Of a stretch of 50,889 bases of DNA, positions 3,802 through 30,424 are shown piece after piece (within the stretch, counting starts at the first letter, position 1; each line of letters opens with the position of its first letter). The translations under genes were made by a program, and so were the position numbers. Source of the DNA: a virus; IMG/VR virus record IMGVR_UViG_3300048928_000164, positions 1 to 50,889 of that record; one strand, written 5' to 3'. Under the pieces are notes generated by a model, which saw nothing but the letters and a program-made list of their open reading frames with translations, made no database searches and had not been told where the DNA came from.

Positions 3802-5729
3802 CAGTAACCGTCGCTCGCCTTGATTGCCTGCCGCCTCATGACGACCGGACCTTCCTCACGCTTTGGTGCGTTCACTCTCACAGCCGCTTCCAGCTCTTTC
3901 CAGTGAGTGTCATCCCACCGATCCACACCCGCCAGGTAAGCCATTGCACGCTCGTACACCCGGCAGTCGAGTGGCTCGTTGCGGTCGTAGACCTTTTCCC
4001 ATTGGTAGCGGCGGAAACCCTTCACAAGTCGAGGCACAATCTCCTCGGCCGTGATGCCGCGAAAGTATTCTTCGCTGTATTCGGGAAAGTGGCAATAGCC
4101 GAAGGGTAGTATATCCCCGCTTTCGGTGGTTGGTTTTTCTTGCTTCAACCACCCGTAAAGCTCGGTCTTTACTATCGAGATCCCGATAGGCCACAGTTTT
4201 GCACTGCGTGTCTTGCGTTTACCTCGGGGCGTGTATTGGATTGTCTTGGGTGCGCCGACGATCATGCTGAGGTTGTCCCGGCCGTCGATGGCGAACACGC
4301 GGTTGACGGCGTGGCGCCCGACCCACTCGTAGACCACGCTGGTGTTGTACCCAGAGTCCACCGCCAGCATGGTGACCTGCAGCTGCCCGCCGAGTTCGTG
4401 ATCGAACCACTCGCCCAACAGCGCGTCGAGGCGCTTCCAGCAATCGCCGTCAAGCTGCGAGGTGTCGCCGGGGAACACCCGGTAGTCGACGCTCCACGAT
4501 TCCATGCGCGGCCCTCGCGCGACGATCTCCACCTCAATGCGGTCTTTCTGCACGTCGGCCCCTGCGAACAGGACGAACCCGCCGGCCGGCACGATGTTGC
4601 GCACGTAGTTCTCGCGGCGGTCATACAGGCGCTTCCAGTCGGGCGCGTCGCCTTCGCCCTTGTACGTCTCGCCCAACACCGTGTTGATGAACGTCTTGCG
4701 CTCCTCGATGTTCTTGTGGCTGTCGATCCACTCGGCCGCCAGGTGCGCCCAGGTCGCGTTGGGGCTGTAGCTGTACGCCGCCCAGATGTGGAACGAAGCG
4801 TGCCGTGGGTCGGCATCAGGGTTGGTCGGCACCCAGCCATATCGTTTGTCGCCGGCCAGGTTGCGGCGGTCGGCCTCCTCGATCATCCAGCGTTGCCACT
4901 CGTAACCGATGGGGCGGATCTCGCCGGTCTCGGGGTCGCAGCAATCCGGCGACGTGCAGATGAAGTGCGCCGTCTCTGGCTTGCCCTTTTCCCACTTGAG
5001 GTTCTCCCACTTGAGCACTTGCGGGTGCTGACAGTGCGGGCAAGGCACATGGTAATACCGCATGTCGCCCTTCTCGAACCGGCGCTTGATGCGGCTGGTG
5101 CTGTCGAGCGTCGGCGTGCTGCCCGCCAGGATCTTGCGGTTCCAGAAAAAATCCGTCCGCTTGATGCCCAGCTTGAGTTGGTCGCCTTCCTCGCCGGCGG
5201 TGGCCGCGTAGCCGTCCACCTCGTCGAAGCAAACCATACGCATCGACACCCGGCGGAACCCTCGCGGACTGTCGGCGCCGACCATGCGCAACTGTCCGCC
5301 CGGGAACTGCTTGTGCAAGATGGTGTTCCCGCTGTCGCGCTTGCCGGTTTCGTTCACCAGTCCCGACAGGGCCTCGGTGTCACGGATCATCGGCGCGATC
5401 TCATCCTTGCTGTAACCCTCGGCGTCACCGATTGTCGGCTGCACGATCATCATCGGGCACGGGTCGTAGTGCATGAAGAACCCGACGGCGTGGTTGATGA
5501 TCTTGGTCCAGCCCACCCGGGCAGACTTCTGGCAGGTGACCGACTCGATGTGTCGGTCTGTGATGGCGTCCATGATTCCGCGCTGGTAGGGGATGGTCCG
5601 CCACTTGCCGACCTCGGCGCTACTCTCGGCCGACAGGATGGCGTGCTCGTCTGCCCACTGCGACAGGGTCAGCCGCGGCGGGGGTGCCCATGACACTTGG
5701 ATCTGTTTGAACAGCAGGTCAGCGTCCAT
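3801..5729 (-). CDS. A: Terminase large subunit (lambda gpA family)
   Basis: A packaging ATPase and cos-type nuclease of 642 residues; lambda gpA has 641. It shows the unusual Walker A of this family, 'KSARVGWTK' (68-76), a Walker B 'CFDEVD' (167-172), zinc-type cysteine pairs (C230/C233 and C258/C263/C264), and the RNase H-like nuclease start 'AGADVQKDR' with D392 as a probable metal ligand. This family cuts at cos sites, which predicts cohesive ends rather than headful packaging. It overlaps the small subunit gene upstream and gpW downstream. Confidence 0.96.
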   Translation of the reverse strand: MDADLLFKQIQVSWAPPPRLTLSQWADEHAILSAESSAEVGKWRTIPYQRGIMDAITDRHIESVTCQKSARVGWTKIINHAVGFFMHYDPCPMMIVQPTIGDAEGYSKDEIAPMIRDTEALSGLVNETGKRDSGNTILHKQFPGGQLRMVGADSPRGFRRVSMRMVCFDEVDGYAATAGEEGDQLKLGIKRTDFFWNRKILAGSTPTLDSTSRIKRRFEKGDMRYYHVPCPHCQHPQVLKWENLKWEKGKPETAHFICTSPDCCDPETGEIRPIGYEWQRWMIEEADRRNLAGDKRYGWVPTNPDADPRHASFHIWAAYSYSPNATWAHLAAEWIDSHKNIEERKTFINTVLGETYKGEGDAPDWKRLYDRRENYVRNIVPAGGFVLFAGADVQKDRIEVEIVARGPRMESWSVDYRVFPGDTSQLDGDCWKRLDALLGEWFDHELGGQLQVTMLAVDSGYNTSVVYEWVGRHAVNRVFAIDGRDNLSMIVGAPKTIQYTPRGKRKTRSAKLWPIGISIVKTELYGWLKQEKPTTESGDILPFGYCHFPEYSEEYFRGITAEEIVPRLVKGFRRYQWEKVYDRNEPLDCRVYERAMAYLAGVDRWDDTHWKELEAAVRVNAPKREEGPVVMRRQAIKASDGY

Positions 5730-6348
5730 CGGCGAGTTCCTTCATGGCTTCGTCGATCAGCTCCTCGAGGATCTCGATGTCACGCACGGTCAGCGTGGGG
5801 ATCTGACCCTTGGCCTTGGTGGGCACCCCGCGCAGTTTGGTCTGGGCGGTTTTGATCATGCCGAAGTACCGCAACCGGATCTGCTCGGCGTCCACCAGCT
5901 TGCCGACTTTTTGCTCATGAGCAATTTTCGCATCCTTGGCCTCGTAGTGCGCCGTGATCGCTTTGCTGACTGCGACCGGCGGTACCTGTCCGTCGATAAG
6001 TTCCGGCACTTCGATGTCTGGGTCGCTTTGCGTGCGCGGCTTCGGTTCTTCACCGCGGGCCCGGGCATGAGCTGCGGCCCGGCTCTCGCTCATCACCCGC
6101 TTGTCGCGCACTTGGTTGGGGTCAACGTTCTGGCCCCAGCACTTGGCAGCACGCTGCGGGTTGATGATCACCGGCACCATCCGGCCCGGTCCTGTTTTGA
6201 GTTTGCGCTCACCAACGCAGTCGGCCGGGATCTTGCCGGTGGCGATGGCCTTGCGCACTGCCTCGCCGGTCTTGTCCACCGAGCGGCCGAACTCACGCAG
6301 GCTCATGCTCTCGGCTTCGTTGTCCGCTGGTGGTGGTTGTCGTTTCAA
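5719..6348 (-). CDS. Terminase small subunit (lambda Nu1-like)
   Basis: A 209-residue protein upstream of and overlapping the large terminase. Residues 16-40 ('SLREFGRSVDKTGEAVRKAI') form a helix-turn-helix for recognising the packaging site; the C-terminal half is helical and should dock on the large subunit. The longest frame starts at TTG (6348) with only a weak GAG ribosome site. An ATG at 6306, which would still keep the HTH, is a possible alternative, so the start is uncertain. The dyad-rich non-coding DNA just upstream is the likely binding site. Confidence 0.85.
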   Translation of the reverse strand: MKRQPPPADNEAESMSLREFGRSVDKTGEAVRKAIATGKIPADCVGERKLKTGPGRMVPVIINPQRAAKCWGQNVDPNQVRDKRVMSESRAAAHARARGEEPKPRTQSDPDIEVPELIDGQVPPVAVSKAITAHYEAKDAKIAHEQKVGKLVDAEQIRLRYFGMIKTAQTKLRGVPTKAKGQIPTLTVRDIEILEELIDEAMKELADGR

Positions 6349-14134: not shown

Positions 14135-15700
14135 TCAACCGACCAAACTGGCGGCGCTGGCGGGGTTGTTATCGTTTGCGTGCTCGAGCATACGCACTTG
14201 CGCGTCGATGCGTCTGGCAATCCACCGCACGCAGTCGATGGCCTTGCTGTTGCCGATGGCCTTGTAACGTGGCCCATCGGCGGCCATGAGCATCCAGCCG
14301 TCGGCGACCTTGTCCCACATATCGGCCGGTCGCTGATCGGTGACTTTGCGCTGCTTATAGAGGCGCACCGGGATGCGGGTGTAATCGTCAGGGAAGCCCT
14401 GTAGGCGCTCGCACTCGCGAGGTGTCAGTCGGCGGACCTGGGCACCATGCGAAAGCAGGCTGTCAGCGGTATCGGCATCGGTGCCCATCGGGCGATCACC
14501 GCCGGTAACGTTGCCGCCGGCGCGAATGGTCGGGCACACGTTGACATGCGGCACACTGATAATCGGTTGGCCCCAGCCGGTGCCGTCCTCGCTCGCGTCA
14601 AAACCTTCGGCCTTGAGCGTGTGAGTGATTTCGCCGGTAATGCACAGCACCGCGTTCTCTTGCCCGCTATTCCGGCCGAGCGTGTGGGCCTGATCGATAC
14701 TGACGCAAGGGTCTTGCGTGCCGTGCACGACGATGGGCGCCTCGTGATTGCACGTCAGGGTCGGCGCACGGTTGACCCCGATCTCGGCGTTCGGCTGCCC
14801 GTGGGCCATGCATATCAAATTGACGTCGTCGCCACGGTCAGCCTTGGGCGTGCCGGCCAGCAGGGTGTCAGCCAGCACCGGCAAGAAGTGGCCCGCCGCC
14901 GCACCCTCGGGACGACCGCCTGCGCCGCCGCTGTAGGCGTTACTGGTAATGGCGCCAGCAGTCAGGGGGATGTCGTCGGTGCTATACCCGCCACTGCTGC
15001 GAGAGCCGCCTGCAAGGGTGCCGGCAACGTCTTTGCCCGCGCCTCGGCTCGGCGCAGTATCCCGGCGCACGCCTTCGCGCTCAAAAAGTACCGCTGCGGG
15101 ATCGAACCCTGCTCGAGCACTTGCGACAACGAACACACGGCGGCGTCGTTGGGCCAATCCGAAATATTGGGCATCCAGAACCCGCCATGCAGCTGCTCGC
15201 GTGGGTCCATACACACAACCAGCGTTCGACCATTTTCCCCCTGACGGCTCGAGCGCAACGGATTCGCCCACCAAGGCGCCAAGGAAGCACCCGAACGCGT
15301 TGCCTTTGTCCGAGAGTACGCCGGGCACGTTTTCCCACCAGACGACGCACTCACCGTCTCCTCTTGCGGTTCGAACATGGTCAATTGCATCTGCCAGCTC
15401 CACGAATTTGATTGTCAATTGGCCGCGAGCATCCTCGAGGCCGGCACGCATACCGGCGACGCTGAATGCTTGGCACGGGGTTCCGCCCACCAGAAGGCTA
15501 GGCGCATGCACACGGCCCGCGAGCACGTCGCGGGCAATCTTGGTCATGTCGCCGAGGTTAGGGACTTGAGGGTAATGGTGAGCCAACACAGCGCTCGGGA
15601 ATGCCTCGATCTCGGCGAACCAAGACGGTTTCCAGCCAAGCGGATGCACGGCAACCGTCGCGGCCTCGATGCCACTGCACACGCTGCCGTAGTCGATCAT
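14135..15700 (-). CDS. DNA (cytosine-5) methyltransferase
   Basis: A 521-residue C5-cytosine methyltransferase. Visible motifs: I 'YGSVCSGIEA' (4-13), catalytic IV 'GGTPCQAFS' (Cys76), VI 'WENVPG' (E123), VIII 'LAQRRRRVF' (182-190), IX 'RRLTPRECERLQGFP', and X 'GPRYKAIGNS'. Between VIII and IX lies an unusually long (about 200 residue) Gly/Thr-rich variable region that includes target recognition. It should protect phage DNA from host restriction. Its ATG overlaps the DUF4406 stop. The C-terminus carries the 'HANDNNP' motif. Confidence 0.95.
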   Translation of the reverse strand: MIDYGSVCSGIEAATVAVHPLGWKPSWFAEIEAFPSAVLAHHYPQVPNLGDMTKIARDVLAGRVHAPSLLVGGTPCQAFSVAGMRAGLEDARGQLTIKFVELADAIDHVRTARGDGECVVWWENVPGVLSDKGNAFGCFLGALVGESVALEPSGGKWSNAGCVYGPTRAAAWRVLDAQYFGLAQRRRRVFVVASARAGFDPAAVLFEREGVRRDTAPSRGAGKDVAGTLAGGSRSSGGYSTDDIPLTAGAITSNAYSGGAGGRPEGAAAGHFLPVLADTLLAGTPKADRGDDVNLICMAHGQPNAEIGVNRAPTLTCNHEAPIVVHGTQDPCVSIDQAHTLGRNSGQENAVLCITGEITHTLKAEGFDASEDGTGWGQPIISVPHVNVCPTIRAGGNVTGGDRPMGTDADTADSLLSHGAQVRRLTPRECERLQGFPDDYTRIPVRLYKQRKVTDQRPADMWDKVADGWMLMAADGPRYKAIGNSKAIDCVRWIARRIDAQVRMLEHANDNNPASAASLVG

Positions 15701-16590: not shown

Positions 16591-17898
16591 TTATGCGTCC
16601 TGCGCGAAAAGGTTGAGTTGTGGGGCGTTGTCGTTGTCCGGTGATGGCACGCCCGTCTTTTTGGCTTCGTGCTCGATGCGCGAGGTCGCAATCGCAAAAT
16701 ATTCCGGGTCCAGCTCGCATCCGATGAACTGAAAGCCTTCACGCATGGCGGCCTTTCCCGTGCTGCCGCTGCCGGTAAATGGGTCCAGCACGGTACCGCC
16801 TGCCGGGGTCACCAGGCGGCACAGGTAGGCCATCAGGTCGGTGGGCTTAACCGTCGGGTGATTGTTGCCCTTGGTGTCCGTTGTCTGGACTTTGCGCAGG
16901 GTGGTGCCCATTTTGAATTGGGGGCCCGGGTGTGCCAGACCTTCGTGGCGGTCCTTAGGGCTGGTCTTGGCACAGTAAAAGAACCTGGCGGCGCTACCCT
17001 TGTCACCCTGGAAGGTGCTGCCGGACTCGTCAACGTTGCCTGCGAAGGCGCCGTATGTGGCGCGGAATTTATCACCGTTTCGCTTGTGAACTGGCGCGGC
17101 GGCACCAGCTTGCGCAGGGAAAAGCGCGACTACTTCGTCGCTGCCGTCGTGGATCAGGTTCGCTGGCCAGCGGCCGAGTTCCGACGCCTTGGTAGTCAAT
17201 TCAACGCCGCCAGACTTACCGCCAACGAAATTACCACCACGGATGTCGGTGGTAGTCTCGCGGTCCCAATTCTTTGCCAGATCGTCAGCATCAGCTGCCT
17301 GGATTCGGCAACCGTCGATATTTATTGCGCCGGTGCCGTGAGCCTGGACGTTAGCCGCAACGGTTCCAATCATCGGCTTGCGGGCCATGCAGATCGGTTC
17401 GTGGGCTGGCTTTAGCGCGGTGCCCCAGCCTTGATTCTGGCCCTTGAGGTTGTGCGACTTTGGGAAGCCGCTGCCGAATACCCACATGATCTGGTCGCGG
17501 ATCTCGAAGCCAGCTATCTCGATGCCCACCGCCATGTGGTGGTAGGTACGGGCGGCGGCAAACGACAGCAAGTGACCGCCCGGCTTGAGTACTCGAAGGC
17601 ACTCGGAAGCCCATTCCAGCGTAAAAGCTTGGAATGCGCGCATGCCCTTCGGTGTCAGATCGTACTTCCCAGCCTCGGCCGCTACAGATCTGTGCCCGCC
17701 GTTTGGGCCGCACGCACTGGCGTGTGATGGCATTCCTGCACGATAGGCGGCGCGCGCCTCAATGTCCGCACCATCCCAGCTCTTGCCCATGAACCTGATA
17801 CCGTAGGGCGGATCGGTCACGACGCTGTCAACGCTGTTGTCTGGCAACGTTCGAAGCGTATCAAGGCAGTCGCCAAGATAAAGGGTGTATCTGTCCAT
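16591..17898 (-). CDS. DNA methyltransferase, beta class (N6-adenine or N4-cytosine)
   Basis: A 435-residue amino-methyltransferase with motif IV 'TDPPYG' (28-33) near the N-terminus and the cofactor motif I 'LDPFTGSGSTGKAA' near the C-terminus, the order of the beta class. DPPY is compatible with N6-adenine (more common) or N4-cytosine methylation. It should work beside the C5 methyltransferase in protecting phage DNA. The C-terminus carries 'PDNDNAPQ', a version of the recurrent NDN motif. Between helicase and VRR-NUC in the same operon. Confidence 0.92.
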   Translation of the reverse strand: MDRYTLYLGDCLDTLRTLPDNSVDSVVTDPPYGIRFMGKSWDGADIEARAAYRAGMPSHASACGPNGGHRSVAAEAGKYDLTPKGMRAFQAFTLEWASECLRVLKPGGHLLSFAAARTYHHMAVGIEIAGFEIRDQIMWVFGSGFPKSHNLKGQNQGWGTALKPAHEPICMARKPMIGTVAANVQAHGTGAINIDGCRIQAADADDLAKNWDRETTTDIRGGNFVGGKSGGVELTTKASELGRWPANLIHDGSDEVVALFPAQAGAAAPVHKRNGDKFRATYGAFAGNVDESGSTFQGDKGSAARFFYCAKTSPKDRHEGLAHPGPQFKMGTTLRKVQTTDTKGNNHPTVKPTDLMAYLCRLVTPAGGTVLDPFTGSGSTGKAAMREGFQFIGCELDPEYFAIATSRIEHEAKKTGVPSPDNDNAPQLNLFAQDA

Positions 17899-17909: not shown

Positions 17910-19787
17910 CTATGCCAACTTAAAGTCGGCTTGTTGGTTTTGATTGTCGTTGGCGTGCCCCATGAACAGGGCCTCGCCAGCACGGTCGATCAGCTCGTTG
18001 ATCTGCTCGACGGTCATGTCGGCCATAGGCTGATCGCTCACACCTTTCACGGTGCGCCCGTTGAGCAGCTCGACAAGCCGGTTGGCGGTGTCGATCTTTT
18101 CGATCATTTCCTTGAGCTTTTTCGGCTTCATGCCCCGGATGTCGGCGATAGCGAAGCCCCAGGCATCACGCACCCCGCGACCAGTTGATCGGGCCCACCA
18201 AGTCAGCATGGCGTGCAGGTCGTTGATCAGGGCGTCTTTTTCGGCCCGGGCCTTTTCAATGTGGTTGAACTGGGCGACGCTCATGCCGGCGGCCTTGGCC
18301 TGCTCGAGCGTCCTGATGACGCCGGTGCTCACGCGTGGCGGCGGCAGGTCGCCGTCTTGGATCTCGGCCAGCTTGCCGGCGTGCTCCTCGATCATGCGGC
18401 TTTTGACTTCGAAGACGTGGTCGCATGTGGTGCCGTCTCGCTTTGGGCCACCGCATACAGCACGAGGTGTCTCGGTGTAGTGACACTTCGGGCACTGCAT
18501 GACGAGCACAGGCTTTTCCTTGAGCAGGGCGTTGCGCGGTCCCTTCTTGCGGCCGGTGAGCGTCCACTCGCGATCCATTGCCGGCATTCCGTGGAACGCC
18601 ACGTTGCCGACGTGATCGAGGATCAGGCCGAAGTGCTTGCCGCTGGCGAAGATTGCGTCGTGTCGGCCTTCCTCGGTGCTCAGGTCGTAGCCAGGGGCGT
18701 ACACCGTGCGCAGGACCCGGCCGACCTGCTGCAAGAACAGCGACTCGGACTCGGTAGGGCGCAACAGGATAGCCACCTCGGCACAAGGGATGTCGGTGCC
18801 TTCTGACACCACGTCGACCGTTACGATGCCCTGAATGCGTCCATCACCGAGCCCGGCAATGCGCTCGTCGCGGTCCTCATCTTCCATGTCGCCATGGACC
18901 ACCTCGAACCGATAGCCGGCGTCGCGGAACTTCTGGGCGACGTGCTCGGCGTGCCGCACGCTGGCGCAGAACACAATTGCCGACTTGCCGTCGGCCAACT
19001 GCCGGTAATGCTCTACCGCGTCGCCGATGATGCCTGGCTTGTCGAGGATCGCCGCAGCGGCGGCCGTGTCGATGTCCTGGCCCTTGTGACCGATCTCGTC
19101 GCGGTTGACTGGCCCTGGCCACGCGTAGACCTTTGGCGGCACCAGATAACCCATCTGGATCAGCTCGCGCATCGAAGGGCCCAGCACCATTGCATCGAAG
19201 CACCCACCCGACTCCTTGCCCAGCCCTTGGCCGTCAGCACGCACCGGGGTGGCGGTCACGCCCACCAGCACGGCATCAGGGCATGCCGCAATGATGCGTG
19301 CCCACGTACCGGCGACGGCGTGGTGCGCCTCGTCGATCACGATGATGGTGGGGTCGAACTCCTTGAGCCAGTCCATGCGGCGGGCGAGCGTCTGCACGCT
19401 GGCCACGGCCACGTGCGAGTGCTTGTCGATGGTTGGCCAGCCGAGTTTTTGAACATGGGCGGCTCGGATCTTGGCGACCTTGCTGGGCGGCGCGATGACC
19501 TGATGGTGAACACCCAGCCCACCGACAGCCAGTGACGCCTGCCGGATCAGCTCCTTGCGGTGCTCGAGGATCAGAATACGGTTGCCCCGAAGTGCCGCGC
19601 CTTGGCTCATGGCCGCATAGGTCACGGTTTTTCCGCCGCCGGTGGGCAGCACGAACAGCACCGCCTTCTTTCCGGCACGCATTTCGGCGCGGATGTCGTT
19701 CAGTCCGTCGTCTTGATAATCACGTAGCGACAGTTTGATGCCGTGCGCGACGGGAGACAGCCCGCCGGACGGTCCCGCCGAACTCAC
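17910..19787 (-). CDS. Superfamily 2 DEAD/DEAH-type helicase
   Basis: A 625-residue helicase of the SSL2/type III restriction-like kind. Walker A 'LPTGGGKT' (K53), DEAH box 'IDEAHH' (151-156), motif III 'GVTATP', and helicase-C motifs 'GIVTVDVVSEGTD' and 'QQVGRVLR' are visible. Four cysteines later ('CPKCHYTE', 'CGGPKRDGTTCDH') probably bind zinc. It likely remodels or opens DNA for replication or recombination. GTG start at 19787 overlaps the regulator stop (GTGA). C-terminus has 'GHANDNQNQ'. Confidence 0.92.
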   Translation of the reverse strand: MSSAGPSGGLSPVAHGIKLSLRDYQDDGLNDIRAEMRAGKKAVLFVLPTGGGKTVTYAAMSQGAALRGNRILILEHRKELIRQASLAVGGLGVHHQVIAPPSKVAKIRAAHVQKLGWPTIDKHSHVAVASVQTLARRMDWLKEFDPTIIVIDEAHHAVAGTWARIIAACPDAVLVGVTATPVRADGQGLGKESGGCFDAMVLGPSMRELIQMGYLVPPKVYAWPGPVNRDEIGHKGQDIDTAAAAAILDKPGIIGDAVEHYRQLADGKSAIVFCASVRHAEHVAQKFRDAGYRFEVVHGDMEDEDRDERIAGLGDGRIQGIVTVDVVSEGTDIPCAEVAILLRPTESESLFLQQVGRVLRTVYAPGYDLSTEEGRHDAIFASGKHFGLILDHVGNVAFHGMPAMDREWTLTGRKKGPRNALLKEKPVLVMQCPKCHYTETPRAVCGGPKRDGTTCDHVFEVKSRMIEEHAGKLAEIQDGDLPPPRVSTGVIRTLEQAKAAGMSVAQFNHIEKARAEKDALINDLHAMLTWWARSTGRGVRDAWGFAIADIRGMKPKKLKEMIEKIDTANRLVELLNGRTVKGVSDQPMADMTVEQINELIDRAGEALFMGHANDNQNQQADFKLA

Positions 19788-20131
19788 AAGGGCACACCAA
19801 GGTGATCCTCGAACGCCTTTTCAAGCCTTTCAATGCGAGAAGTGAGATCAAATTTTTGTGATGAATCCTCACTTTTAAGCGTTGACTCGATGCGGTCCAG
19901 CTTGATTAAAAGATCATCAGACAGCGGTTTATTAGAAGCCGCAGAAATATCGACGAGAGCCGCACGCATCTTTCTGACTGTGCCCAAACTTGGCTCGCTT
20001 CCACTCTGCCAGCGATAGAACGTGCTCGGGGTTACGCCCGACTGCTTACACGCTTGAAACACGGTCGTACCGCATTCCTTGACCAGCTTGCGGATCACGT
20101 CCGCTGTTGCCTTGCCGCTGTTTTGTTCCAT
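19784..20131 (-). CDS. HTH transcriptional regulator, probable phage repressor/Cro-type
   Basis: A 115-residue DNA-binding protein. The N-terminal HTH is visible as 'TVFQACKQSGVTPSTFYRWQ' (residues 23-42); a spacer and a C-terminal coiled coil ('IERLEKAFEDHL') should make it a dimer. There is no LexA-like peptidase domain, so it is not a RecA-cleaved CI. It is the first leftward gene after the divergent promoter region and has its own AGGA ribosome site. It is the best candidate for binding the operator repeats found there and at three other loci; that pairing is inference. Confidence 0.82.
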   Translation of the reverse strand: MEQNSGKATADVIRKLVKECGTTVFQACKQSGVTPSTFYRWQSGSEPSLGTVRKMRAALVDISAASNKPLSDDLLIKLDRIESTLKSEDSSQKFDLTSRIERLEKAFEDHLGVPL

Positions 20132-20309
20132 GAGCTGTATTCCTACGATGAGTTTCGCGCATTGTTGCGCAAGTATTGCCGTTGCGCAATACCTTGCCTA
20201 AGTCCGTGATTACTTGTGATGTTTAGTGAAAAGCTGTGCAATGTGTTGCGCGGCAAGTAATATTGCGCGACACTTTGGCGAAATACATCAGCAGCACGAG
20301 GGCAAGACG
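20132..20309. promoter_or_regulatory. Divergent early promoter region with operator repeats, site B
   Basis: Leftward: TTGCGC (20189-20184), 17 bp, AACAAT (20166-20161), drives the HTH regulator and the replication operon. Rightward: TGTGCA (20235-20240), 17 bp, TAATAT (20258-20263), drives the recombination operon. Both spacers contain copies of the repeat with core GCAATACTTGCGC or its variants (dyad GTATTGC/GCAATAC at 20173-20192). This is the layout of a temperate phage early switch. Confidence 0.65.
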
Positions 20310-20393
20310 ATGAAAAGAGAGGATGGTGGGCAGGCTTTCCCAGTAGCAACCCGTTACGGAAAAATCGCCGAGCGGCAAGCGGGTGCGGCATGA
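20310..20393 (+). CDS. 27-residue leader peptide coupled to the exonuclease
   Basis: A small frame with a GAGGG ribosome site, ending in an ATGA overlap with the exonuclease start, which has no good site of its own. Its 'EDGGQAFPV' resembles a motif I recall at the start of small phage proteins. It likely ensures translation of the exonuclease by coupling; it may also be the remnant of a longer protein of that kind. Confidence 0.5.
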   Translation: MKREDGGQAFPVATRYGKIAERQAGAA

Positions 20394-21232
20394 CGCCCGG
20401 ATTCTATCTGGCCGACGACCTGTCGAATGAGAAGTACCACGCAGGGCCGGGCGTGAGTAACTCGGGCTTGAAGCTGATCGGCGATAAAACGCCGCTTCAC
20501 TTCTGGGGCCGGTACATTGCGGCGCAGCGGCCGAAGTTCACCAGCACCGCGGCGATGTTCGTGGGCACGGCCTTTCACGCCGCGTCGCTCGAACCGCACA
20601 AGTTCGATGACGAGTACGTGGTTGCCAACTTCAAGGACCGCCGCGCAGCCGGTTACAAGGCGTGGGCCGAGGAACAAAACAAGCACATCCTCATGGCCGG
20701 CGAGATGACCAACGTCATCGGCATGCGGCGCGCGCTGTTCGAACACCCGGTCGCCGGCGGCTTGCTGCGCGGCGGTGGTCACTTCGAATACTCGGCCTAT
20801 GCCGAGGACCCTGAGACCGGCGTGCTGGTCCGTGCGCGTGCTGACTTCATGTCGGACGGCGGCTGGATCGTCGACCTGAAAAAGACCCAAGATGCCAGCC
20901 CGGCCGGGTGCCGGAAAGCCATCGAGAACTACGGCTATTGGCAGCAGGACCCGTTCTATCTGGACGTGTTCGCATTGGCCGGCGGGGAACTGCCACGCGG
21001 GTTTGTGTTCATCTTCGTCGAGGAGGAATTCCCGCACGCTGTAAACGTCGTCTACTTGACAGAGGAGGACCGTCAGCGCGGGCGACGGATCTACCGAAAT
21101 AACCTGCGTCTCTATGCCCAGTGCTTAGAGCGCAACGAGTGGCCGGGGTACGGCAAGCAGGCGAGCGAATTGGAATTGTCCATGTGGGCACGCCGCCGAA
21201 TTGATGATGCACTTTCGAATGAGGAATTTTGA
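20390..21232 (+). CDS. RecE-like PD-(D/E)XK exonuclease
   Basis: A 280-residue exonuclease of the RecE/YqaJ type. Signature residues are H63 in 'GTAFHAASL', D152 in 'RARADF', and D162-x-K164 in 'IVDLKKTQDAS', the metal-binding core. It should resect dsDNA ends 5' to 3', leaving 3' single strands for the annealing protein that follows. First full gene of the rightward early operon, coupled to the leader peptide by ATGA. Circularisation, repair or replication by recombination are the likely uses. Confidence 0.88.
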   Translation: MTPGFYLADDLSNEKYHAGPGVSNSGLKLIGDKTPLHFWGRYIAAQRPKFTSTAAMFVGTAFHAASLEPHKFDDEYVVANFKDRRAAGYKAWAEEQNKHILMAGEMTNVIGMRRALFEHPVAGGLLRGGGHFEYSAYAEDPETGVLVRARADFMSDGGWIVDLKKTQDASPAGCRKAIENYGYWQQDPFYLDVFALAGGELPRGFVFIFVEEEFPHAVNVVYLTEEDRQRGRRIYRNNLRLYAQCLERNEWPGYGKQASELELSMWARRRIDDALSNEEF

Positions 21233-21234
21233 CT

Positions 21235-22224
21235 ATGAGTACCAACTTGACCACTACCGATCAGAATGCGGATCGGTTGCCAGCACTCGGGGGAGTGTAC
21301 GGTAGCATGCAGGGCTTCGAGGATGCCCAGCGCATGGCAAAAGCACTGTCCTCCAGTACGCTAGTCCCTGCCGATTATCAGGGCAACGTATCCAACACGC
21401 TGATCGCTCTGGAAATGTCACAGCGAACCGGGTCGTCGCCGATGGCCGTGATGCAGAACCTACACATCATCCACGGGCGGCCGAGCTGGTCGTCGCAGTT
21501 CGTGATCGCCGCGCTCAACTCGTGCGGCCGTTTTTCGCCACTTCGCTACCGGGTCGAGGACCTGGGCGATACCGACGCAAAGATCGACGAATGGACCGGC
21601 CCCAAGGGTCAGCGAACCAAGTCGAGCCGGATCATCAAGGTGCACGACAAAAGCTGCGTGGCATGGTGCTACGACAAGGCGACCGGCGACGTCTTGGAAG
21701 GCCCGCCAGTAAGTATTGGCATGGCCGTGGCCGAGGGCTGGTACACCAAGGACGGCAGCAAGTGGGTAACCATGCCAGAACTTATGCTGCGCTATCGGGC
21801 CGCGAAGTTTTTCGGCAACCTTTACGCGCCTGACGTGCTCATGGGCATGCACACCGCCGACGAGGTCGAAGACTTCGACGAGCCGATCCGCGTGCAACAG
21901 GCGCCACGTGCCGCAAACGACAATAAGCCCCAGGCCAGCGCGCTGGACGACCTGAACTCATTCGCGGGCACCAGCACCAGCACCAGCACGGTCATCGATG
22001 CCGAAGTCGTGGTCGAGCCGCAAAAGGAAAAGGATACGCCACGGCCGCGCAACCGCCGGGCCGCCAAGACAGAAACCGAGGCGACGCCGGAAGTAATCGA
22101 ACCGGAAGTAATCGAGGCCGAGTTCGAGGAACAGGCTCAAGTGACAGAGACTGTGACCGTCGAGCCAGAGCCAGAGCAAAAGGCCCAGACCACCCAGTCT
22201 TCCCCCGTCAAAGACCTTTTCTAA
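21235..22224 (+). CDS. RecT-like single-strand annealing protein
   Basis: A 329-residue protein that should coat and anneal the single strands made by the exonuclease. The conserved core covers about residues 20-215 ('NTLIALEMSQRTGSSPMAVM', 'GRPSWSSQFVIAALN', 'MPELMLRYRAAKFFGNLYAPD'), the RecT/Redbeta style. The C-terminal third is low-complexity, acidic and repetitive (runs of EVIEPEVIEAE type), a flexible tail that could bind host SSB or other partners. ATG at 21235 has GAGGA upstream. Contains 'AANDNKPQ' at the domain border. Confidence 0.8.
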   Translation: MSTNLTTTDQNADRLPALGGVYGSMQGFEDAQRMAKALSSSTLVPADYQGNVSNTLIALEMSQRTGSSPMAVMQNLHIIHGRPSWSSQFVIAALNSCGRFSPLRYRVEDLGDTDAKIDEWTGPKGQRTKSSRIIKVHDKSCVAWCYDKATGDVLEGPPVSIGMAVAEGWYTKDGSKWVTMPELMLRYRAAKFFGNLYAPDVLMGMHTADEVEDFDEPIRVQQAPRAANDNKPQASALDDLNSFAGTSTSTSTVIDAEVVVEPQKEKDTPRPRNRRAAKTETEATPEVIEPEVIEAEFEEQAQVTETVTVEPEPEQKAQTTQSSPVKDLF

Positions 22225-22235
22225 AACATAAAGCA

Positions 22236-22254
22236 GGGGGCGGTGCGCCGCCCT
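22236..22254 (+). other. Intergenic hairpin before the SbcC-like gene
   Basis: GGGCGG-TGCG-CCGCCC with wobble extension, in the 43-base gap between RecT-like and SbcC-like genes. No T tract follows, so it is more likely an mRNA stability or processing element than a terminator. Confidence 0.4.
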
Positions 22255-22267
22255 CTCGGAGAAACTC

Positions 22268-23935
22268 ATGGAAATTGAAGTCAAGAATTACCGCGGCGTG
22301 TCCGAAGCATCGTTGACCCTCGCACCCATCGCCCTGGTAGCCGGCCCCAACGGTGGGGGCAAGTCATCCATCGCCCAGGCTGTTGCCGCCGCGGTCACCC
22401 AGAACGCCGCGCCAATCGCCGGTATCACCAAGGCCGCCGCCGGTCAGCTGCTGCGAGACGGCGCCAAGCGTGGCCGGTGCGTGGTTGGTGACGACACCGG
22501 CAATGCCACGGCCAATTGGCCAGGCGCCAGCGTGAGCGTCGAGGGCACCCCGCCATGGGCCAGCGACATCGCCGCCGGCATCACCAGCATCGTCGACATG
22601 AAGCCAAAAGACGCCGCCGCGCTGCTGATCAGTGCGATGGAAGCCATGCCGACGCAAGCGGACCTGACTGCCGCGCTGCCCAAGGTTTCGGCCGAAATGG
22701 TCGCAGCCATCTGGGCGGTGATCGAGAAAGAAGGATGGGACGCCGCTCACAAGCGCTCGCAGGAACGCGGCGCCAAGATGAAAGGCGCGTGGGAGTATGT
22801 CACCGGGGAGCGATATGGCAGCGCCAAGGGTGCCGAATGGCAGGCACCGTTCCTCAACAGCCTGCCGGAAGATGTCGAGCTGTCCCAGCTTGAGAAGACC
22901 GCAGGCGACGCCAAGCAGGCGCTCGAGGCCGCCATCGGTAAACAGGGTGCCGCGCAGGCCGATATTGACCGTCTGGCCGACAAGGCTGCGGCTGGCTTGA
23001 AGGCTGGCGAGACGCTGGTGCAGGCAGAGGAACAGCTGGTCGAGCTTCAAGCCGCCCAGGACGCGCTGACCGAGCAGCTCAACGCCCTGCCACGGCCCGA
23101 GAACGGCGAAAGCTATATCGAGTGTCCGCATTGCAAGGGTCACCTCGTCGTGGTGTCCCGTAGCGAGGTGCGTGCGCCCACCACCGGCATCGGCGAGAAA
23201 GAGAACGCCGACCGCATCGAGCGCATCACCGCCAAGACGAACGAATATGAGCTAGCACGCCAGGCCACCAGTCAGCTGTCGCAAGAGATCGGCGTGCTGC
23301 GCCGTCAGCAGCAGGACGGCAGCGAGGCCGCCAAGCGCCTCGACGCCATGCCGCGCGGCAGCTTGACGGCCGATGACGTCGCAGCCGCCCGGGCACTGGC
23401 CGAGCAAGCGGATGAGCAGGTGGTGAAGTACAACGCCGCCGTGAAAGCCGAGGCCGATGCGACGTCGCTGCATGACCAGATCGTCACCAACGTGCTGATC
23501 CTCGATCAGCTGGCGCCCAATGGCCTGCGCCAGAAGGTGCTCGCCGACAAAATGGCCGAGTTCAACGGCATGCTGGCCCGCCTGTCCGGCACTGCCGGTT
23601 GGCCTATCGTCACGCTGGCAGACGACCTCAGTGCGTCGCTCGGCGAGCGCCCTTACATCCTGCTATCGGAGTCGGAAAAGTACCGCGTTCGGGCAATCCT
23701 GCAGGTTGCGCTGGCCGACTTGGATGGCAGCGATCTGGTCATCGTGGACGCCGCCGACATCCTCGACCGCCTCGGGCGCAACGGCCTGTTCAAACTGCTG
23801 GCCGGCACTGGCATGCGGGCGCTCGTCTGCATGACCATGAACAAGGTCGAGGACGTACCCAACCTGGCAGGCCCTGGCATGGGCGCATCCTACTGGCTCA
23901 ACGATTCAATCCTGTCACCAATCGGTGACCAATAA
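22268..23935 (+). CDS. Rad50/SbcC-like ATPase with zinc-hook motif
   Basis: A 555-residue AAA/ABC-type ATPase. Walker A 'AGPNGGGKSS' (25-34); a central coiled coil (about 210-440) interrupted by C286-P-H-C289, which fits a Rad50 zinc hook; an ABC signature-like 'LSESEKYR'; and a Walker B 'LVIVDAAD' (D494). It is much shorter than bacterial SbcC (over 1,000 residues). It should tether or handle DNA ends and normally pairs with an SbcD-type nuclease; none is present, so the neighbouring RecE-like exonuclease may be the partner. GGAG precedes the ATG. Confidence 0.85.
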   Translation: MEIEVKNYRGVSEASLTLAPIALVAGPNGGGKSSIAQAVAAAVTQNAAPIAGITKAAAGQLLRDGAKRGRCVVGDDTGNATANWPGASVSVEGTPPWASDIAAGITSIVDMKPKDAAALLISAMEAMPTQADLTAALPKVSAEMVAAIWAVIEKEGWDAAHKRSQERGAKMKGAWEYVTGERYGSAKGAEWQAPFLNSLPEDVELSQLEKTAGDAKQALEAAIGKQGAAQADIDRLADKAAAGLKAGETLVQAEEQLVELQAAQDALTEQLNALPRPENGESYIECPHCKGHLVVVSRSEVRAPTTGIGEKENADRIERITAKTNEYELARQATSQLSQEIGVLRRQQQDGSEAAKRLDAMPRGSLTADDVAAARALAEQADEQVVKYNAAVKAEADATSLHDQIVTNVLILDQLAPNGLRQKVLADKMAEFNGMLARLSGTAGWPIVTLADDLSASLGERPYILLSESEKYRVRAILQVALADLDGSDLVIVDAADILDRLGRNGLFKLLAGTGMRALVCMTMNKVEDVPNLAGPGMGASYWLNDSILSPIGDQ

Positions 23936-23949
23936 AGCGAGGTAACACC

Positions 23950-24219
23950 GTGGAAAATCAGCACCGTAAAATCAGCGGCTATGGTGAACTCTCTCAGGAA
24001 GAAATCGACCTGATGAACGAAATCAAGGCGAAGGGTCAAGAGCTGCAAGACCTGATCTATAAATGCCGCGGCGTCGATGTCGCAGTCGGAAAGACCGATG
24101 ACCGGGAGCACAACGAGGTCCTTGATGAGGCGTCTCGTTGGCGCGCCATCGCCAAGACCGATCTGCAAACTGGCCTGATGGCATTGACGCGATCCGTGGC
24201 AAAGCCAGCATTTTTCTAA
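23950..24219 (+). CDS. acb2: Acb2-family anti-CBASS cyclic-nucleotide sponge
   Basis: An 89-residue protein that I recognise as an Acb2 homologue: it begins with 'HRKISGYGELSQEEIDLMNE' and ends with the 'KTDLQTGLMALTRSV' segment typical of this family. Tyr11 and Lys26 stand at the positions reported, as I recall, for cyclic dinucleotide binding in phage PaMx33 Acb2. The family forms hexamers that sequester CBASS (and related Thoeris) signalling nucleotides and so block abortive immunity. GTG start with a strong GAGGT site; immediately downstream of the SbcC-like gene. The middle (about residues 37-60) is longer than I remember in Acb2. Confidence 0.85.
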   Translation: MENQHRKISGYGELSQEEIDLMNEIKAKGQELQDLIYKCRGVDVAVGKTDDREHNEVLDEASRWRAIAKTDLQTGLMALTRSVAKPAFF

Positions 24220-24273
24220 CGCTTAACCCTACGGCCCGGCAAGGACGCTGGGCCGCAACCTGAAAGCATCAAC

Positions 24274-24498
24274 GTGCAACACTCGAACGACAATAACCCG
24301 TACTTGACCCCCGACGAACTCTCGGCCCGCTATCATGGGCGTATCGCCGTCCGCACCCTGGCGAACTGGCGTTGCCTGGGCGACGGCCCAAAGTTCACCA
24401 AGGTGGGCGGGCGTATTCTTTATTTGATGACTGAGGTGCTGGCCTGGGAACAGGCTCGCACCGTCGGGAGCACATCGAGCTATGCCCGCACATACTGA
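24274..24498 (+). CDS. Excisionase-like / AlpA-type helix-turn-helix protein
   Basis: A 74-residue winged HTH (HTH_17 kind): 'YLTPDELSARYHGRIAVRTL' is the turn, followed by the recognition part 'ANWRCLGDGPKFTKVGGRIL' and 'EVLAWEQ'. Such proteins serve as excisionases or as activators of integrase genes. The phage has an integrase 5 kb downstream, so an excision role is reasonable but unproven. GTG start, no strong ribosome site. The N-terminus carries 'SNDNNP'. Confidence 0.75.
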   Translation: MQHSNDNNPYLTPDELSARYHGRIAVRTLANWRCLGDGPKFTKVGGRILYLMTEVLAWEQARTVGSTSSYARTY

Positions 24499-24736
24499 CA
24501 AACGCCCGCGCCACTTCGCAGAAGACCTTACCGACGCCTGGGTGCGCGGTCAGCCTACCGACGCCATATTGGCCGGTATGCCCGAGGTTTTCCGTGGGCT
24601 GGCGCGGGCACACGCCAAGTCTTACTGCGAGAAAATCCAGTTCCATCGCCGTGCGGGTACTCCTCGCGAAAGCATCATGGGCGCGCAGCTTGCCGAGTGG
24701 GTCGAGATCTACTCGGCAAGACTTGCTGCGAAATAG
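24482..24736 (+). CDS. Hypothetical protein
   Basis: An 84-residue basic protein overlapping the HTH gene by 17 bases. Mostly helical ('DAWVRGQPTDAILAGMPEVF', 'LARAHAKSYCEKIQFHRRAG'). Not recognised. The stop falls directly upstream of promoter site C. Confidence 0.6.
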   Translation: MPAHTDKRPRHFAEDLTDAWVRGQPTDAILAGMPEVFRGLARAHAKSYCEKIQFHRRAGTPRESIMGAQLAEWVEIYSARLAAK

Positions 24737-24775
24737 TTGCGTCGCGCCAATACTTGCGCAATACTTCGCGCAACA
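24737..24775 (+). promoter_or_regulatory. Promoter with operator repeats, site C
   Basis: TTGCGT (24737-24742), a 17-bp spacer and AATACT (24760-24765). Two overlapping repeat copies cover it: 24744-24761 and 24756-24774, both containing CAATACTT flanked by GCGC. It would drive the genes from 24814 onwards. Confidence 0.6.
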
Positions 24776-24785
24776 GAACAGATGA

Positions 24786-24800
24786 CCCGGCATGACCGGG
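24786..24800 (+). other. 5'-UTR hairpin after promoter C
   Basis: CCCGG-CATGA-CCGGG about 14 bases after the predicted transcription start, followed by the AAGGAAAGGAAG ribosome site. Probably an RNA stability or translation element; it lacks a T tract. Confidence 0.4.
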
Positions 24801-24813
24801 CAAGGAAAGGAAG

Positions 24814-25062
24814 GTGAGCAAGAATTTCAGCGTTGAAGGCTGGCAGGGCATCCTGCGAGGCCAAGCCATGCCAGGCGACATATTGGTCGGCGAATCGATT
24901 GCGGTGTACGTGCACCGCAAGTTCGCCACTTTGATCGCCGAGCGCGACGCCCTGCAACAACTGCTCAACCAGCGCGACGCGCAGATCGACGCAACCGCCT
25001 GCAAGTTCCCCCAGATGTGCAGCAGCGCGTGCGGGTGCACCAAGGCGGTGCCCAATGGCTGA
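24814..25062 (+). CDS. Hypothetical protein with C-terminal Cys cluster
   Basis: An 82-residue protein, GTG start with a strong GGAAAGGAAG site. The middle is a short coiled coil ('FATLIAERDALQQLLNQRDA'), and the end has four cysteines in 'CKFPQMCSSACGC', possibly a metal site. First gene under promoter C. Function unknown. Confidence 0.6.
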   Translation: MSKNFSVEGWQGILRGQAMPGDILVGESIAVYVHRKFATLIAERDALQQLLNQRDAQIDATACKFPQMCSSACGCTKAVPNG

Positions 25063-25201
25063 CAAGCCAGCCTGCCACCCGCGCAAGCGGTTCAGCTCCC
25101 CCGAGAGCGCCCGTGCAGCGGCCGACGCAATCTACCGGCGTGACCGCGTGGCACTCACCCCAAAGCGCTGCAAAGAGTGCGGCGACCTCCACCTGAATTA
25201 A
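25055..25201 (+). CDS. 48-residue zinc-finger-like protein
   Basis: A short basic protein, 'MADKPACHPRKRFSSPESAR' then 'KRCKECGDLHLN'. The C-x(2)-C pair plus the N-terminal C/H suggest one zinc site. It overlaps the upstream gene by 8 bases. Similar tiny zinc-ribbon proteins with 'C-x2-CG-x-H/W-H' ends are common among phages; role unknown. Confidence 0.55.
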   Translation: MADKPACHPRKRFSSPESARAAADAIYRRDRVALTPKRCKECGDLHLN

Positions 25202-25219
25202 TCCACCGAGGAAAGGACC

Positions 25220-25492
25220 ATGTCCAAGTTTGCAAAGCTGTTCGAGTTCGATGACATCGGCCAAGTGCTGGTCAAACGCGACACCGATGAAAACGGTGAC
25301 CCAGAGGTTCGCCTCTATTTCGAGCCGAAGGGTTTCGGCGTTTGTTCTACCGCTTTCGGTTTCGAGGCCGACGAGAACGGGGATGAGGCGACCAAGGCTG
25401 TGCTCGCTTTCGATCTGGTCGATGAAGTCCGCGCAGAAAAGATCATTCGCGGCGTTCTGGAAACACTGCCCGCCGAGCTCGCGGCCGAATAA
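25220..25492 (+). CDS. Hypothetical acidic protein
   Basis: A 90-residue, strongly acidic beta-rich protein ('EFDDIGQVLVKRDTDENGDP', 'FGFEADENGDEATKAV'). An AGGAAAGG site precedes the ATG. Strongly negative small phage proteins may mimic DNA or regulate host enzymes, but nothing specific is visible. It is located directly before the FtsK-gamma protein. Confidence 0.65.
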   Translation: MSKFAKLFEFDDIGQVLVKRDTDENGDPEVRLYFEPKGFGVCSTAFGFEADENGDEATKAVLAFDLVDEVRAEKIIRGVLETLPAELAAE

Positions 25493-25518: not shown

Positions 25519-26178
25519 ATGTCCGAATCTATCCGGAAACAAATCGACAAACTCGGCGACAGCCTCGCCGATCTGGAGTCGCTCGAAGACTTCCCAGAGC
25601 TGCATGCCGCCGAGCACGTCGGGACCGACCTGCTGGGCGCGCTGCTCGACGAGATCAAGCAGCTCCAATCGCCTTGGCAAAGCACACCGCAACACCTGCA
25701 AGCCGAGCTGATCGACCGCCTGCGCCGCCGGGTGGAAGCAAACGTCAAGCAGGCCGTTGCGCTGATCGCCGCCGAGGGCCGCGTCACCGTGGTGGGCACC
25801 CTGGAACAGGTCACGTTCAAGGGTGCTATCAAGGCGACCCTCGCATTGAGCAAATCCAACGTGCACCGCCTCGACATGGCTGACAACGTGGGGCAGGAAG
25901 TTCTGGTAGTCATCATGCCGGCCGAGCAGTTCACTGGCGGCATGGACGGCATCGAAGCCGACCCAGACCAAAGCGATCTGCTTGAAGGAGTGCGCGACGA
26001 CCAGCTCTACAGCGAGGCGGTCAAGTTCGTCCGCGAGACGAGGCGCGCCAGCGTGAGCGCCGTGCAGCGTCACCTAAAGATCGGCTACAACCGCGGCGCC
26101 AGGCTGATCGAGGAAATGGAACTGCAGGGCGTTGTCACCGCCATGAACACCAACGGCTCCCGCGAGGTCATCGGCTGA
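25519..26178 (+). CDS. Phage protein with C-terminal FtsK-gamma domain
   Basis: A 219-residue protein. Residues 160-219 are a clear FtsK gamma winged-helix: 'LYSEAVKFVRETRRASVSAV', 'QRHLKIGYNRGARLIEEME' and a closing 'GVV' strand. In host FtsK this domain reads KOPS sequences and activates XerCD. The phage protein lacks the FtsK motor and membrane parts; residues 1-155 are an unrelated alpha/beta region. It may bind DNA at KOPS-like sites or contact XerD. Start ATG 25519; the stop overlaps the next gene (ATGA). Confidence 0.82.
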   Translation: MSESIRKQIDKLGDSLADLESLEDFPELHAAEHVGTDLLGALLDEIKQLQSPWQSTPQHLQAELIDRLRRRVEANVKQAVALIAAEGRVTVVGTLEQVTFKGAIKATLALSKSNVHRLDMADNVGQEVLVVIMPAEQFTGGMDGIEADPDQSDLLEGVRDDQLYSEAVKFVRETRRASVSAVQRHLKIGYNRGARLIEEMELQGVVTAMNTNGSREVIG

Positions 26179-28359: not shown

Positions 28360-28943
28360 AGCACATCCACCTAATAACCCGCGCCATTGCCAGAGATCTT
28401 GGCATGGCGCAGTACTTCACGGGTAAGCCTTGCATCAGGGGTCATATTGTCGAGCGTGACGTAAGGAAATCTGTTTGCGGAGACTGCAAAAAGATCTGCC
28501 GAAACAAGTCATATGCGAACAACAGAGAATCAATTCGAAAACAGCAGGGCGAATACTTTGCAGCGAATCGAGCGAAAGTTAACGCCGCTGCATTGGCTTG
28601 GTATCACGGCAACCAAGAGGCAAGAGAAAACAATGCCGGGCACTGTCGCAAGCGTCGGGCGACAAAGAACGGCGCCACGCCAAAATGGTTCGGTGAACTG
28701 GACCAGTTCGTTCTCGACGAGGCCGACTCACTAGCCAGGCTTCGGGCCGAACTTTTTGGGTTCCCGTGGCACGTCGACCACATGGTGCCGCTCAAGGCGA
28801 GGAATGCCTGCGGTCTGCACTGCGCCTCAAACATCCAAGTCATACCGGCATCAATAAATATTTCTAAGGGAAACCGGATGATCTACACCGATCCTTTTGA
28901 GTGGTGGGCGGGGTGGGGCTCGAACCCACGACCAGCCGGTTAA
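28356..28943 (+). CDS. HNH endonuclease
   Basis: A 195-residue HNH nuclease. An N-terminal zinc knuckle (C26, H30, C41, C44) precedes the HNH core 'WHVDHMVPLKA' (H139, D141-H142), then 'ASNIQVIPASINISKGNR' with the Asn and the third ligand. It may be a packaging-associated nicking enzyme or a homing endonuclease. The last 13 codons run through the antisense of the tRNA 3' half, and the stop lies within the tRNA gene, so the C-terminus has probably been set by that junction. GTG start. Confidence 0.85.
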   Translation: MKHIHLITRAIARDLGMAQYFTGKPCIRGHIVERDVRKSVCGDCKKICRNKSYANNRESIRKQQGEYFAANRAKVNAAALAWYHGNQEARENNAGHCRKRRATKNGATPKWFGELDQFVLDEADSLARLRAELFGFPWHVDHMVPLKARNACGLHCASNIQVIPASINISKGNRMIYTDPFEWWAGWGSNPRPAG

Positions 28944-28976
28944 AAGCCGGCTGCTCTACCACTGAGCTACCCGCCC
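28902..28976 (-). tRNA. tRNA-Lys (anticodon UUU), CCA encoded
   Basis: A complete cloverleaf can be drawn by hand: acceptor GGGCGGG/CCCGCCC, D stem GCTC/GAGC with a 7-base loop, anticodon stem GCCGG/CCGGC around the loop CTTTTAA, T stem GTGGG/CCCAC around TTCGAGC, discriminator A and encoded CCA. All stems are perfectly paired. The gene is 308 bp from the integrase and antisense to the end of the HNH gene. It may be a working phage tRNA, an attachment site, or both. Confidence 0.95.
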
Positions 28977-29284: not shown

Positions 29285-30424
29285 ATGCGTCAACGCCTTA
29301 CCAAGCGTTTCATTGACTCGATCACCAAGCCCACCAAAGAGGAATGGCACACCGATGCCGACGTGCCTGGTTTCTGCCTGCGCGTAACGCCATCGGGCGC
29401 AAAGCTCTACGTTGCCCGGTACAGGTTAGGCGGCAAGGCCCGCAAGCTGCCCATCGGCCGGCACGGGCAGATCACGGTCGAGCAGGCCCGCCAGAAAGCC
29501 CGCGACGTATTCGCCGCACTGGCAGACGGCCGTGACCCTGCTGCGGTCGTTGAGGCCGGCCCGACCGTCAGCGACCTGCGCCTGCGGTACGAGCGTGAGC
29601 ACAGCGACCTGCACAAGAAGGAACGCAGCCAGGATGCCGACCGGGCCCTATGGACGAACCACATCATTCCAGCCATGGGCGACGACAGTGTGCGTGCGCT
29701 CAAGCGCGATGACGTCATGGCGCTGCACGTCGCCCTGAAAGATCGTCCCTACGTGGCCAACCGGACGCTCGCCCTGATCAGCCACGCCCTCAAGATGGCC
29801 GAGCTGTGGGGGTGGCGCGACGACGGCAGCAACCCGTGCCGCAATATCAAGCGGTACAAGGAGGAGGAGCGCGAGGTGGTGCTCAATCCCGAGGAGCTGG
29901 CCAGGCTGATCGCCGAGCTGGACAACACCGAGCGCACCCGGCTGAAAGGTCTGTCGGTCGTGCCGCTGGTCCGCCTGCTGCTGATGACCGGGTGCCGGCA
30001 GTCTGAGATCCGCACGGCCCGCTGGGAATGGGTCGACTTCGACCGGGCGGTGTTGGCTCTGCCAGACAGTAAGGGCGGAAAAAAAGACGTCGACCTGCCG
30101 CCTGCCGCCGTCGCCATGCTCACCGCCATGCGCGCCGTCGATAAAGGCGACTGGATTGTGCCGGGCCACATCCACGGTACCCACATGGTCAGCCCATCCA
30201 GACCGTGGCATGCCATCTGCAAGCGCGCTGGACTGCCGGTGATGCGCCTGCACGACCTTCGCCACACGTACGGCACCATGGCGTCGCTCAGTGGCCTGTC
30301 GCTGCGTGAGGTTGCCGACCTGCTGGGGCACCGCAGCACGGTGTCGACCATGCGCTACGTCAACGCGGCCAACTGGAAAAAGAAGGGCAACAGCGCGATG
30401 GTCGCCGGGGTGATGTGCGGATAG
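29285..30424 (+). CDS. int: Tyrosine integrase (P4-type)
   Basis: A 379-residue site-specific recombinase. The N-terminal DUF4102 arm-binding domain ('DVPGFCLRVTPSGAKLYVAR') is followed by a core-binding helical region and the catalytic domain with R238 (in 'TGCRQSEIR'), H323-x-x-R326, H349 and nucleophile Y358 (in 'TMRYVN'). Integrases of this type usually insert at tRNA 3' ends, and a tRNA gene lies just upstream. ATG 29285 is the first good start for the domain; its ribosome site is weak. It integrates and, with an excisionase, excises the prophage. Confidence 0.95.
   Translation: MRQRLTKRFIDSITKPTKEEWHTDADVPGFCLRVTPSGAKLYVARYRLGGKARKLPIGRHGQITVEQARQKARDVFAALADGRDPAAVVEAGPTVSDLRLRYEREHSDLHKKERSQDADRALWTNHIIPAMGDDSVRALKRDDVMALHVALKDRPYVANRTLALISHALKMAELWGWRDDGSNPCRNIKRYKEEEREVVLNPEELARLIAELDNTERTRLKGLSVVPLVRLLLMTGCRQSEIRTARWEWVDFDRAVLALPDSKGGKKDVDLPPAAVAMLTAMRAVDKGDWIVPGHIHGTHMVSPSRPWHAICKRAGLPVMRLHDLRHTYGTMASLSGLSLREVADLLGHRSTVSTMRYVNAANWKKKGNSAMVAGVMCG

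Follow-up and report, generated by a model that had tools for sequence, protein, structure and literature searches.

A predicted Acb2-family cyclic-oligonucleotide sponge in a variable gene slot downstream of recombination genes in a temperate phage

Known Acb2 proteins and the gene of this phage

Acb2 is a small phage protein that captures the alarm molecules by which infected bacteria set off their own death. Its hexamer has distinct pockets for three cyclic dinucleotides and for two cyclic trinucleotides, and their capture keeps CBASS effectors silent (PMC12043709, PMC10419184, PMC10097602); two protomers contribute their N- and C-termini to the dinucleotide pocket (PMC10419184). In T4 Vs.4, cGAMP is contacted by Y8, H11, K23, R79 and F82, the Y8A and F82A substitutions weaken cGAMP binding, and the hexamer requires L29, A66, A73 and A77 (PMC10097602); in a later study Y8A is the binding-deficient mutant and T68M is reported to have lower binding (PMC12657230). 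Acb2 acts in lysogenic induction and not in maintenance (PMC12043709). In addition, the Panoptes defence is set off by Acb2 (PMC12657218, PMC12657230), and carrying the protein should therefore be costly in Panoptes-bearing hosts. The nucleotide gcADPR, which the original prediction had listed among the ligands to be assayed, is credited in a review to Tad1 and Tad2 instead of Acb2 (PMC12043709).

The window, which is the whole 50,889-base IMG/VR virus record analysed here, contains a gene (acb2, Table 1) that very probably encodes an Acb2 sponge blocking host CBASS and came into a variable slot as accessory cargo. The basis of this reading is the family sequence, the contact residues, the predicted hairpin, purifying selection and the variability of the slot, and from it we infer early expression, hexamer formation, ligands and CBASS inhibition for this particular protein. 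Judging by its position, acb2 would be produced together with the early recombination genes, and its product would assemble into a hexamer that binds cyclic di- and trinucleotides made by host CBASS cyclases; the effectors would then stay inactive, and the infected or induced cell may live long enough for phage production. The role of Acb2 in induction fits a position among the early genes of a temperate phage. Acb2 is an already known kind of protein, and the window adds one more member to it, in this case from a temperate phage and beside recombination genes.

Table 1. Features of the acb2 locus and related elements of the window (positions are those of the window)
Feature	Position	Strand	Evidence
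Divergent HTH regulator, head of operon	19784..20131	-	weak HTH Pfam matches
Exonuclease VIII-like PD-(D/E)XK nuclease	20390..21232	+	phrog_412 1e-90, PF12684 4.3e-24
RecT-like ssDNA annealing protein	21235..22224	+	phrog_561 3e-79
SbcC/RecF-like ATPase, 555 aa	22268..23935	+	phrog_77 1.7e-12, AAA_23
GAGG ribosome-binding site, 7 nt upstream of GTG	23939..23942	+	direct reading
acb2, predicted 89-aa Acb2-family cyclic-oligonucleotide sponge	23950..24219	+	PF24729, phrog_717, PDB 8h2j, Foldseek/VIA
Tyr11 codon (T4 Vs.4 Y8, cGAMP stacking)	23980..23982	+	Y in 128/128 homologues; PMC10097602
Gly12 codon	23983..23985	+	alignment; Arg in 125/128 homologues
Lys26 codon (T4 K23, cGAMP contact)	24025..24027	+	K in 127/128 homologues
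Thr70 codon (T4 T68)	24157..24159	+	alignment
Arg81 codon (T4 R79, cGAMP contact)	24190..24192	+	R in 128/128 homologues
GC-rich stem-loop between acb2 and HTH gene, without T-run	24232..24255	+	folding of 24215-24280
HTH_17 (excisionase/regulator-like) gene, 3' border of slot	24274..24498	+	PF12728 3.5e-5, under Pfam cut-off
Tyrosine integrase	29285..30424	+	PF00589 2.2e-19, PF13356 3.9e-19

Family membership and predicted fold

The 89-aa protein matches the PF24729 profile (Acb2/Tad1 hairpin) over all of its positions (1-58 of 58) with 63.9 bits, the curated cut-off being 27 bits, and it is assigned to phrog_717 (1.6e-21), from which the T4 Vs.4 homologues of Jenson et al. were taken (PMC10097602). 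A phmmer search gave end-to-end matches to the solved Acb2 of phages PaP2/PaMx33 (8h2j, 5.7e-18; 8ixz, 2.3e-17). The closest solved relative, p26 of these Pseudomonas phages (8h2j, 8h2x, 8ixz), aligns over its full length with 44% identity and has the same hairpin fold, whereas the protein of the window has four fewer residues in the tip of the hairpin and carries G12 in place of R12. T4 Vs.4 (7uq2) belongs to the same Pfam and PHROG families, has equivalent Y, K and R contacts and shares about 23-27% identity over structural alignments. Homologues of Acb2 were identified in 225 phage records, in at least 364 stretches of viral contigs and at 59 loci in bacterial or metagenome-assembled genomes; a SMODS cyclase (PF18144) was matched in only two of ten bacterial genomes with acb2 relatives, an uncontrolled count that weighs against the CBASS reading. 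Apart from the identical contig L061, the nearest homologues are those of L062 (75% identity) and L064 (71%). By its sequence, the gene is a genuine and intact Acb2 homologue with a putative anti-CBASS function, and the original prediction of an Acb2-type anti-CBASS gene is supported by its sequence, its contact residues and the modelled fold.

The AlphaFold2 model (49 sequences, pLDDT 89.3) consists of an antiparallel hairpin of two helices (residues 16-46 and 52-84); the short N-terminal helix is absent from the model, and residues 1-10 are of low confidence. The proposed comparison of such a model with Acb2 placed Acb2 and Vs.4 on top: the six best Foldseek rows are Acb2 chains (8h2j/8h2x, E 2.9e-6 to 7.7e-6, TM 0.73-0.82), the next are three chains of T4 Vs.4, and the VIA-align Z is 10.2 for both Acb2 and Vs.4 (2.3 A over 86 residues for the latter). 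As helical hairpins are common, with an unrelated designed protein reaching 9.4 in the same measure, the fold alone says little, and the modelled hairpin is best taken as a supplement to the sequence, insufficient by itself to identify Acb2. The hairpin of Tad1 is also covered by PF24729, like that of Acb2; however, Tad1 protomers have an N-terminal antiparallel beta-sheet before the helices (PMC12043709), while the 89-aa protein is modelled as all-helical with no strand, and the identification as Tad1 was rejected.

Comparison within the family corrects an earlier idea about the loop, namely that the region around residues 37-60 is longer than usual and could change the pocket. The distance from K26 to W64 is 37 aa in the window, 41 in PaMx33 Acb2, 38 in T4 Vs.4 and between 22 and 65 among the homologues, and the whole proteins of the window, PaMx33 and T4 have 89, 93 and 88 aa, respectively, so that the new protein is longer only in comparison with the common 74-aa forms. 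What varies in length in region 37-60 is the hairpin tip, whereas the published dinucleotide pocket is built from the protein termini. With a region of ordinary length and a variable part at the tip, a change of the pocket is unsupported.

Contact residues and the substitution at position 12

In the alignment of 128 non-redundant homologues, on which all residue counts given here are based, the five cGAMP contacts of T4 Vs.4 (Y8, H11, K23, R79, F82) correspond to Y11, L14, K26, R81 and A84 of the window, and L29, A66, A73, A77 and T68 correspond to L32, A68, G75, L79 and T70. Tyr11 and Lys26, which had been recognized at the outset as hallmarks of the 89-residue protein, are indeed present and are invariant or nearly so in the family (Table 1). 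The residues L14 and A84 are unlike H11 and F82 of T4, yet they agree with PaMx33 and with nearly all other homologues; at the stacking position of T4 F82, for instance, alanine is found in the window, in PaMx33 and in 125 of the 128 homologues. The equivalents in PaMx33 Acb2 are Y11, K26 and L14, followed by T74, R85 and A88 for T70, R81 and A84 of the window. R63 and T70, which may bear on trinucleotide binding, are conserved as well, and the residues at the hexamer-interface positions (L32, I36, A68, G75, L79) are all common in the Acb2 family. None of the positions listed for T4 thus departs from what is usual in the family.

In the same alignment, position 12 is the sole abnormal residue. 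It is glycine in the window and nearly always arginine elsewhere, the other residues being lysine in T4 and serine in one homologue. A DNA pattern for Gly12 was found in two stretches of viral contigs, L061 and L146, and the pattern with Arg or Ser codons in place of Gly12 in at least 120. Since L061 is 100% identical to the window over 12,267 nt, its glycine is not independent and possibly belongs to the same phage, whereas L146 (5500-5528, minus strand) encodes an independent G12 Acb2 with the equivalents of Y11 and K26 intact. The replacement may be a sequencing error; glycine does occur at this position in another Acb2, that of L146. Alternatively, the loss of arginine beside the stacking Tyr11 could alter the range or strength of ligand binding, toward narrower or different nucleotides. 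The near invariance of Arg12 and the existence of the second G12 protein lend this some plausibility; nevertheless, it is unlikely, as the aligned K9 of T4 is outside the published contacts (Y8, H11, K23, R79, F82) and in all other respects acb2 is an intact gene that evolves under purifying selection.

Operon setting, cargo slot and maintenance of the gene

The placement of acb2 in a recombination operon, as originally described, holds, with genes for an exonuclease VIII, a RecT-like protein and an SbcC-like ATPase directly upstream. The acb2 gene of PaMx33, in contrast, adjoins a structural gene. The stop codon of the ATPase gene precedes acb2 by 14 nt, and no promoter-like sites were found in 19700-25300. 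For the ATPase, two weak matches, to MAD3 and Rad50, were discarded, as they cover the P-loop region only. It had also been suggested that the flanking genes may be other anti-defence factors; this is unsupported, as the neighbours are recombination genes, the HTH_17 gene and small unknowns, and none of the flanking genes matches an anti-defence or defence family in Pfam, NCBIfam or PADLOC.

Despite this setting, acb2 is exchangeable cargo between the SbcC-like ATPase and HTH_17 genes and lies outside the recombination machinery, because the slot is empty or otherwise filled in relatives and the base composition of acb2 (GC 53.3%, GC3 0.62) is lower than that of the recombination and HTH genes around it (60-65%, GC3 0.75-0.80). 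For instance, in the IMG/VR contig L271, whose SbcC-like protein is 80% identical, an HTH gene follows about 70 nt past the SbcC stop without acb2, and Bordetella phage PY223 has the matching gene order without acb2, the HTH gene directly after SbcC being 47% identical to the HTH_17 gene of the window. In L272 (77% identical), a different gene of 101 aa occupies 5685-5990, equivalent to 23950-24219 of the window; it is preceded by the same GAGGTAACACC leader as acb2 and followed by a similar stem-loop. Three other small genes fill the slot of L276, and a PF24729 search of the L271, L272, L276 and L278 records matched nothing. The 3' edge of the slot is marked in the window, L271 and L272 by a stem-loop of the GGC-AAGGAC-GCC type with changes on both arms, for which the folding of 24215-24280 gave -22.7 kcal/mol (z -2.35) and the stem-loop itself (24232-24255) no Rfam family match. 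Very probably acb2 was gained by the phage as accessory cargo at this place.

A nucleotide-binding hairpin that works outside counter-defence, for instance as a buffer of host cyclic dinucleotides or as a helper of the recombination operon, might be considered, as acb2 stands directly behind recombination genes and related acb2 genes have unrelated surroundings (capsid genes, terminase/portal, topoisomerase). The scattered settings in turn speak against a recombination-specific role, as does the lack of acb2 in L271 and PY223, whose operons are homologous, and the solved relatives are all nucleotide sponges, which makes a non-defence role very improbable.

The reading frame of acb2 opens with GTG, the earliest start available past the preceding stop, and it obtained a positive coding score and was retained in the gene path of a home-made gene caller. 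Comparison with the relatives in L062 and L064 gave pS values of 0.94 and 0.79, respectively, which amount to saturation of synonymous sites, and a pN of 0.17-0.21; such a pN, far below the saturated pS, indicates purifying selection and maintenance of the Acb2 protein. That the small, GTG-initiated frame is decayed or arose by chance is practically out of the question, given that it is in frame and full length with a good ribosome-binding site, a family score well above the cut-off and pN much lower than pS.

The phrog_1761 family and other genes of the phage

The 101-aa slot protein of L272 is a member of phrog_1761 (5.7e-34), a family whose proteins are about 60 aa long and occur in 355 phage records, the listed ones all annotated as hypothetical; among the records of L271, L272, L276 and L278, this family was matched in L272 alone. 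It is conceivable, though rather unlikely, that the slot is a counter-signalling slot and that phrog_1761 is a candidate second family of nucleotide sponges exchanged with acb2. The model of the L272 protein is made up of one short helix and two antiparallel ones, in the order of elements described for Acb2. PF24729 matched four of 37 phrog_1761 members weakly (E 0.1 or weaker), the match in L301 being in register and one match covering profile positions 21-55 of 58. However, an hhalign comparison of the phrog_1761 and Acb2 profiles found nothing (P 0.67), a profile search of the PDB with phrog_1761 gave no match and the Foldseek matches of the L272 protein included no Acb2 chain, for which reasons phrog_1761 was not accepted as an established Acb2 homologue. 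If phrog_1761 does sequester immune nucleotides, widespread unannotated phage genes would join the anti-CBASS or anti-Thoeris repertoire.

Gene neighbourhoods were compared between 108 phrog_1761 loci and 264 acb2 loci, in which 11 neighbour families directly adjoin both genes. For the 62 loci with a drawable null, eight common neighbour families were counted against 3.75 +/- 1.49 in a null drawn at random from conserved small genes, and two of 500 draws reached eight; without the Rz-like lysis-cassette family, the same test gave seven against 3.4 (1.4% of draws). As this null was unmatched for accessory cargo genes, general cargo slots may account for some of the excess. An apparent exact exchange of acb2 and phrog_1761 at a single position in the T4-like Acinetobacter phages Ac42 and 133 was dismissed, as what these phages have in common is an accessory island whose gene order is shuffled.

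In many prophages acb2 is located directly behind an Rz-like lysis gene, as at the Xenorhabdus loci L027, L033, L036 and L039, and phrog_1761 genes are likewise found behind an Rz-like lysis gene at lambdoid loci such as L302, L407 and L409.

From its gene content, the phage of the window is temperate with a contractile tail, as it encodes a tyrosine integrase together with portal, terminase, sheath and major head proteins. A complete tRNA-Lys (TTT; 28902-28976, minus strand) lies just before the integrase gene and is a candidate attachment site, given that a similar tRNA-Lys is present at the attP of Haemophilus phage S2. Two genes on the minus strand, at 14135-15700 and 16591-17898, encode C5-cytosine and N6/N4 DNA methyltransferases, both with apparent long insertions relative to their own Pfam and PHROG profiles, and the gene at 14135-15700 also matches a PHROG annotated as DNA primase. 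The same operon as acb2 includes, at 25519-26178 on the plus strand, a gene whose small product carries an FtsK gamma (DNA-binding) domain at its C-terminus and lacks a motor domain; in phage phi297, an FtsK-gamma gene is situated between the RecT and AAA ATPase genes.
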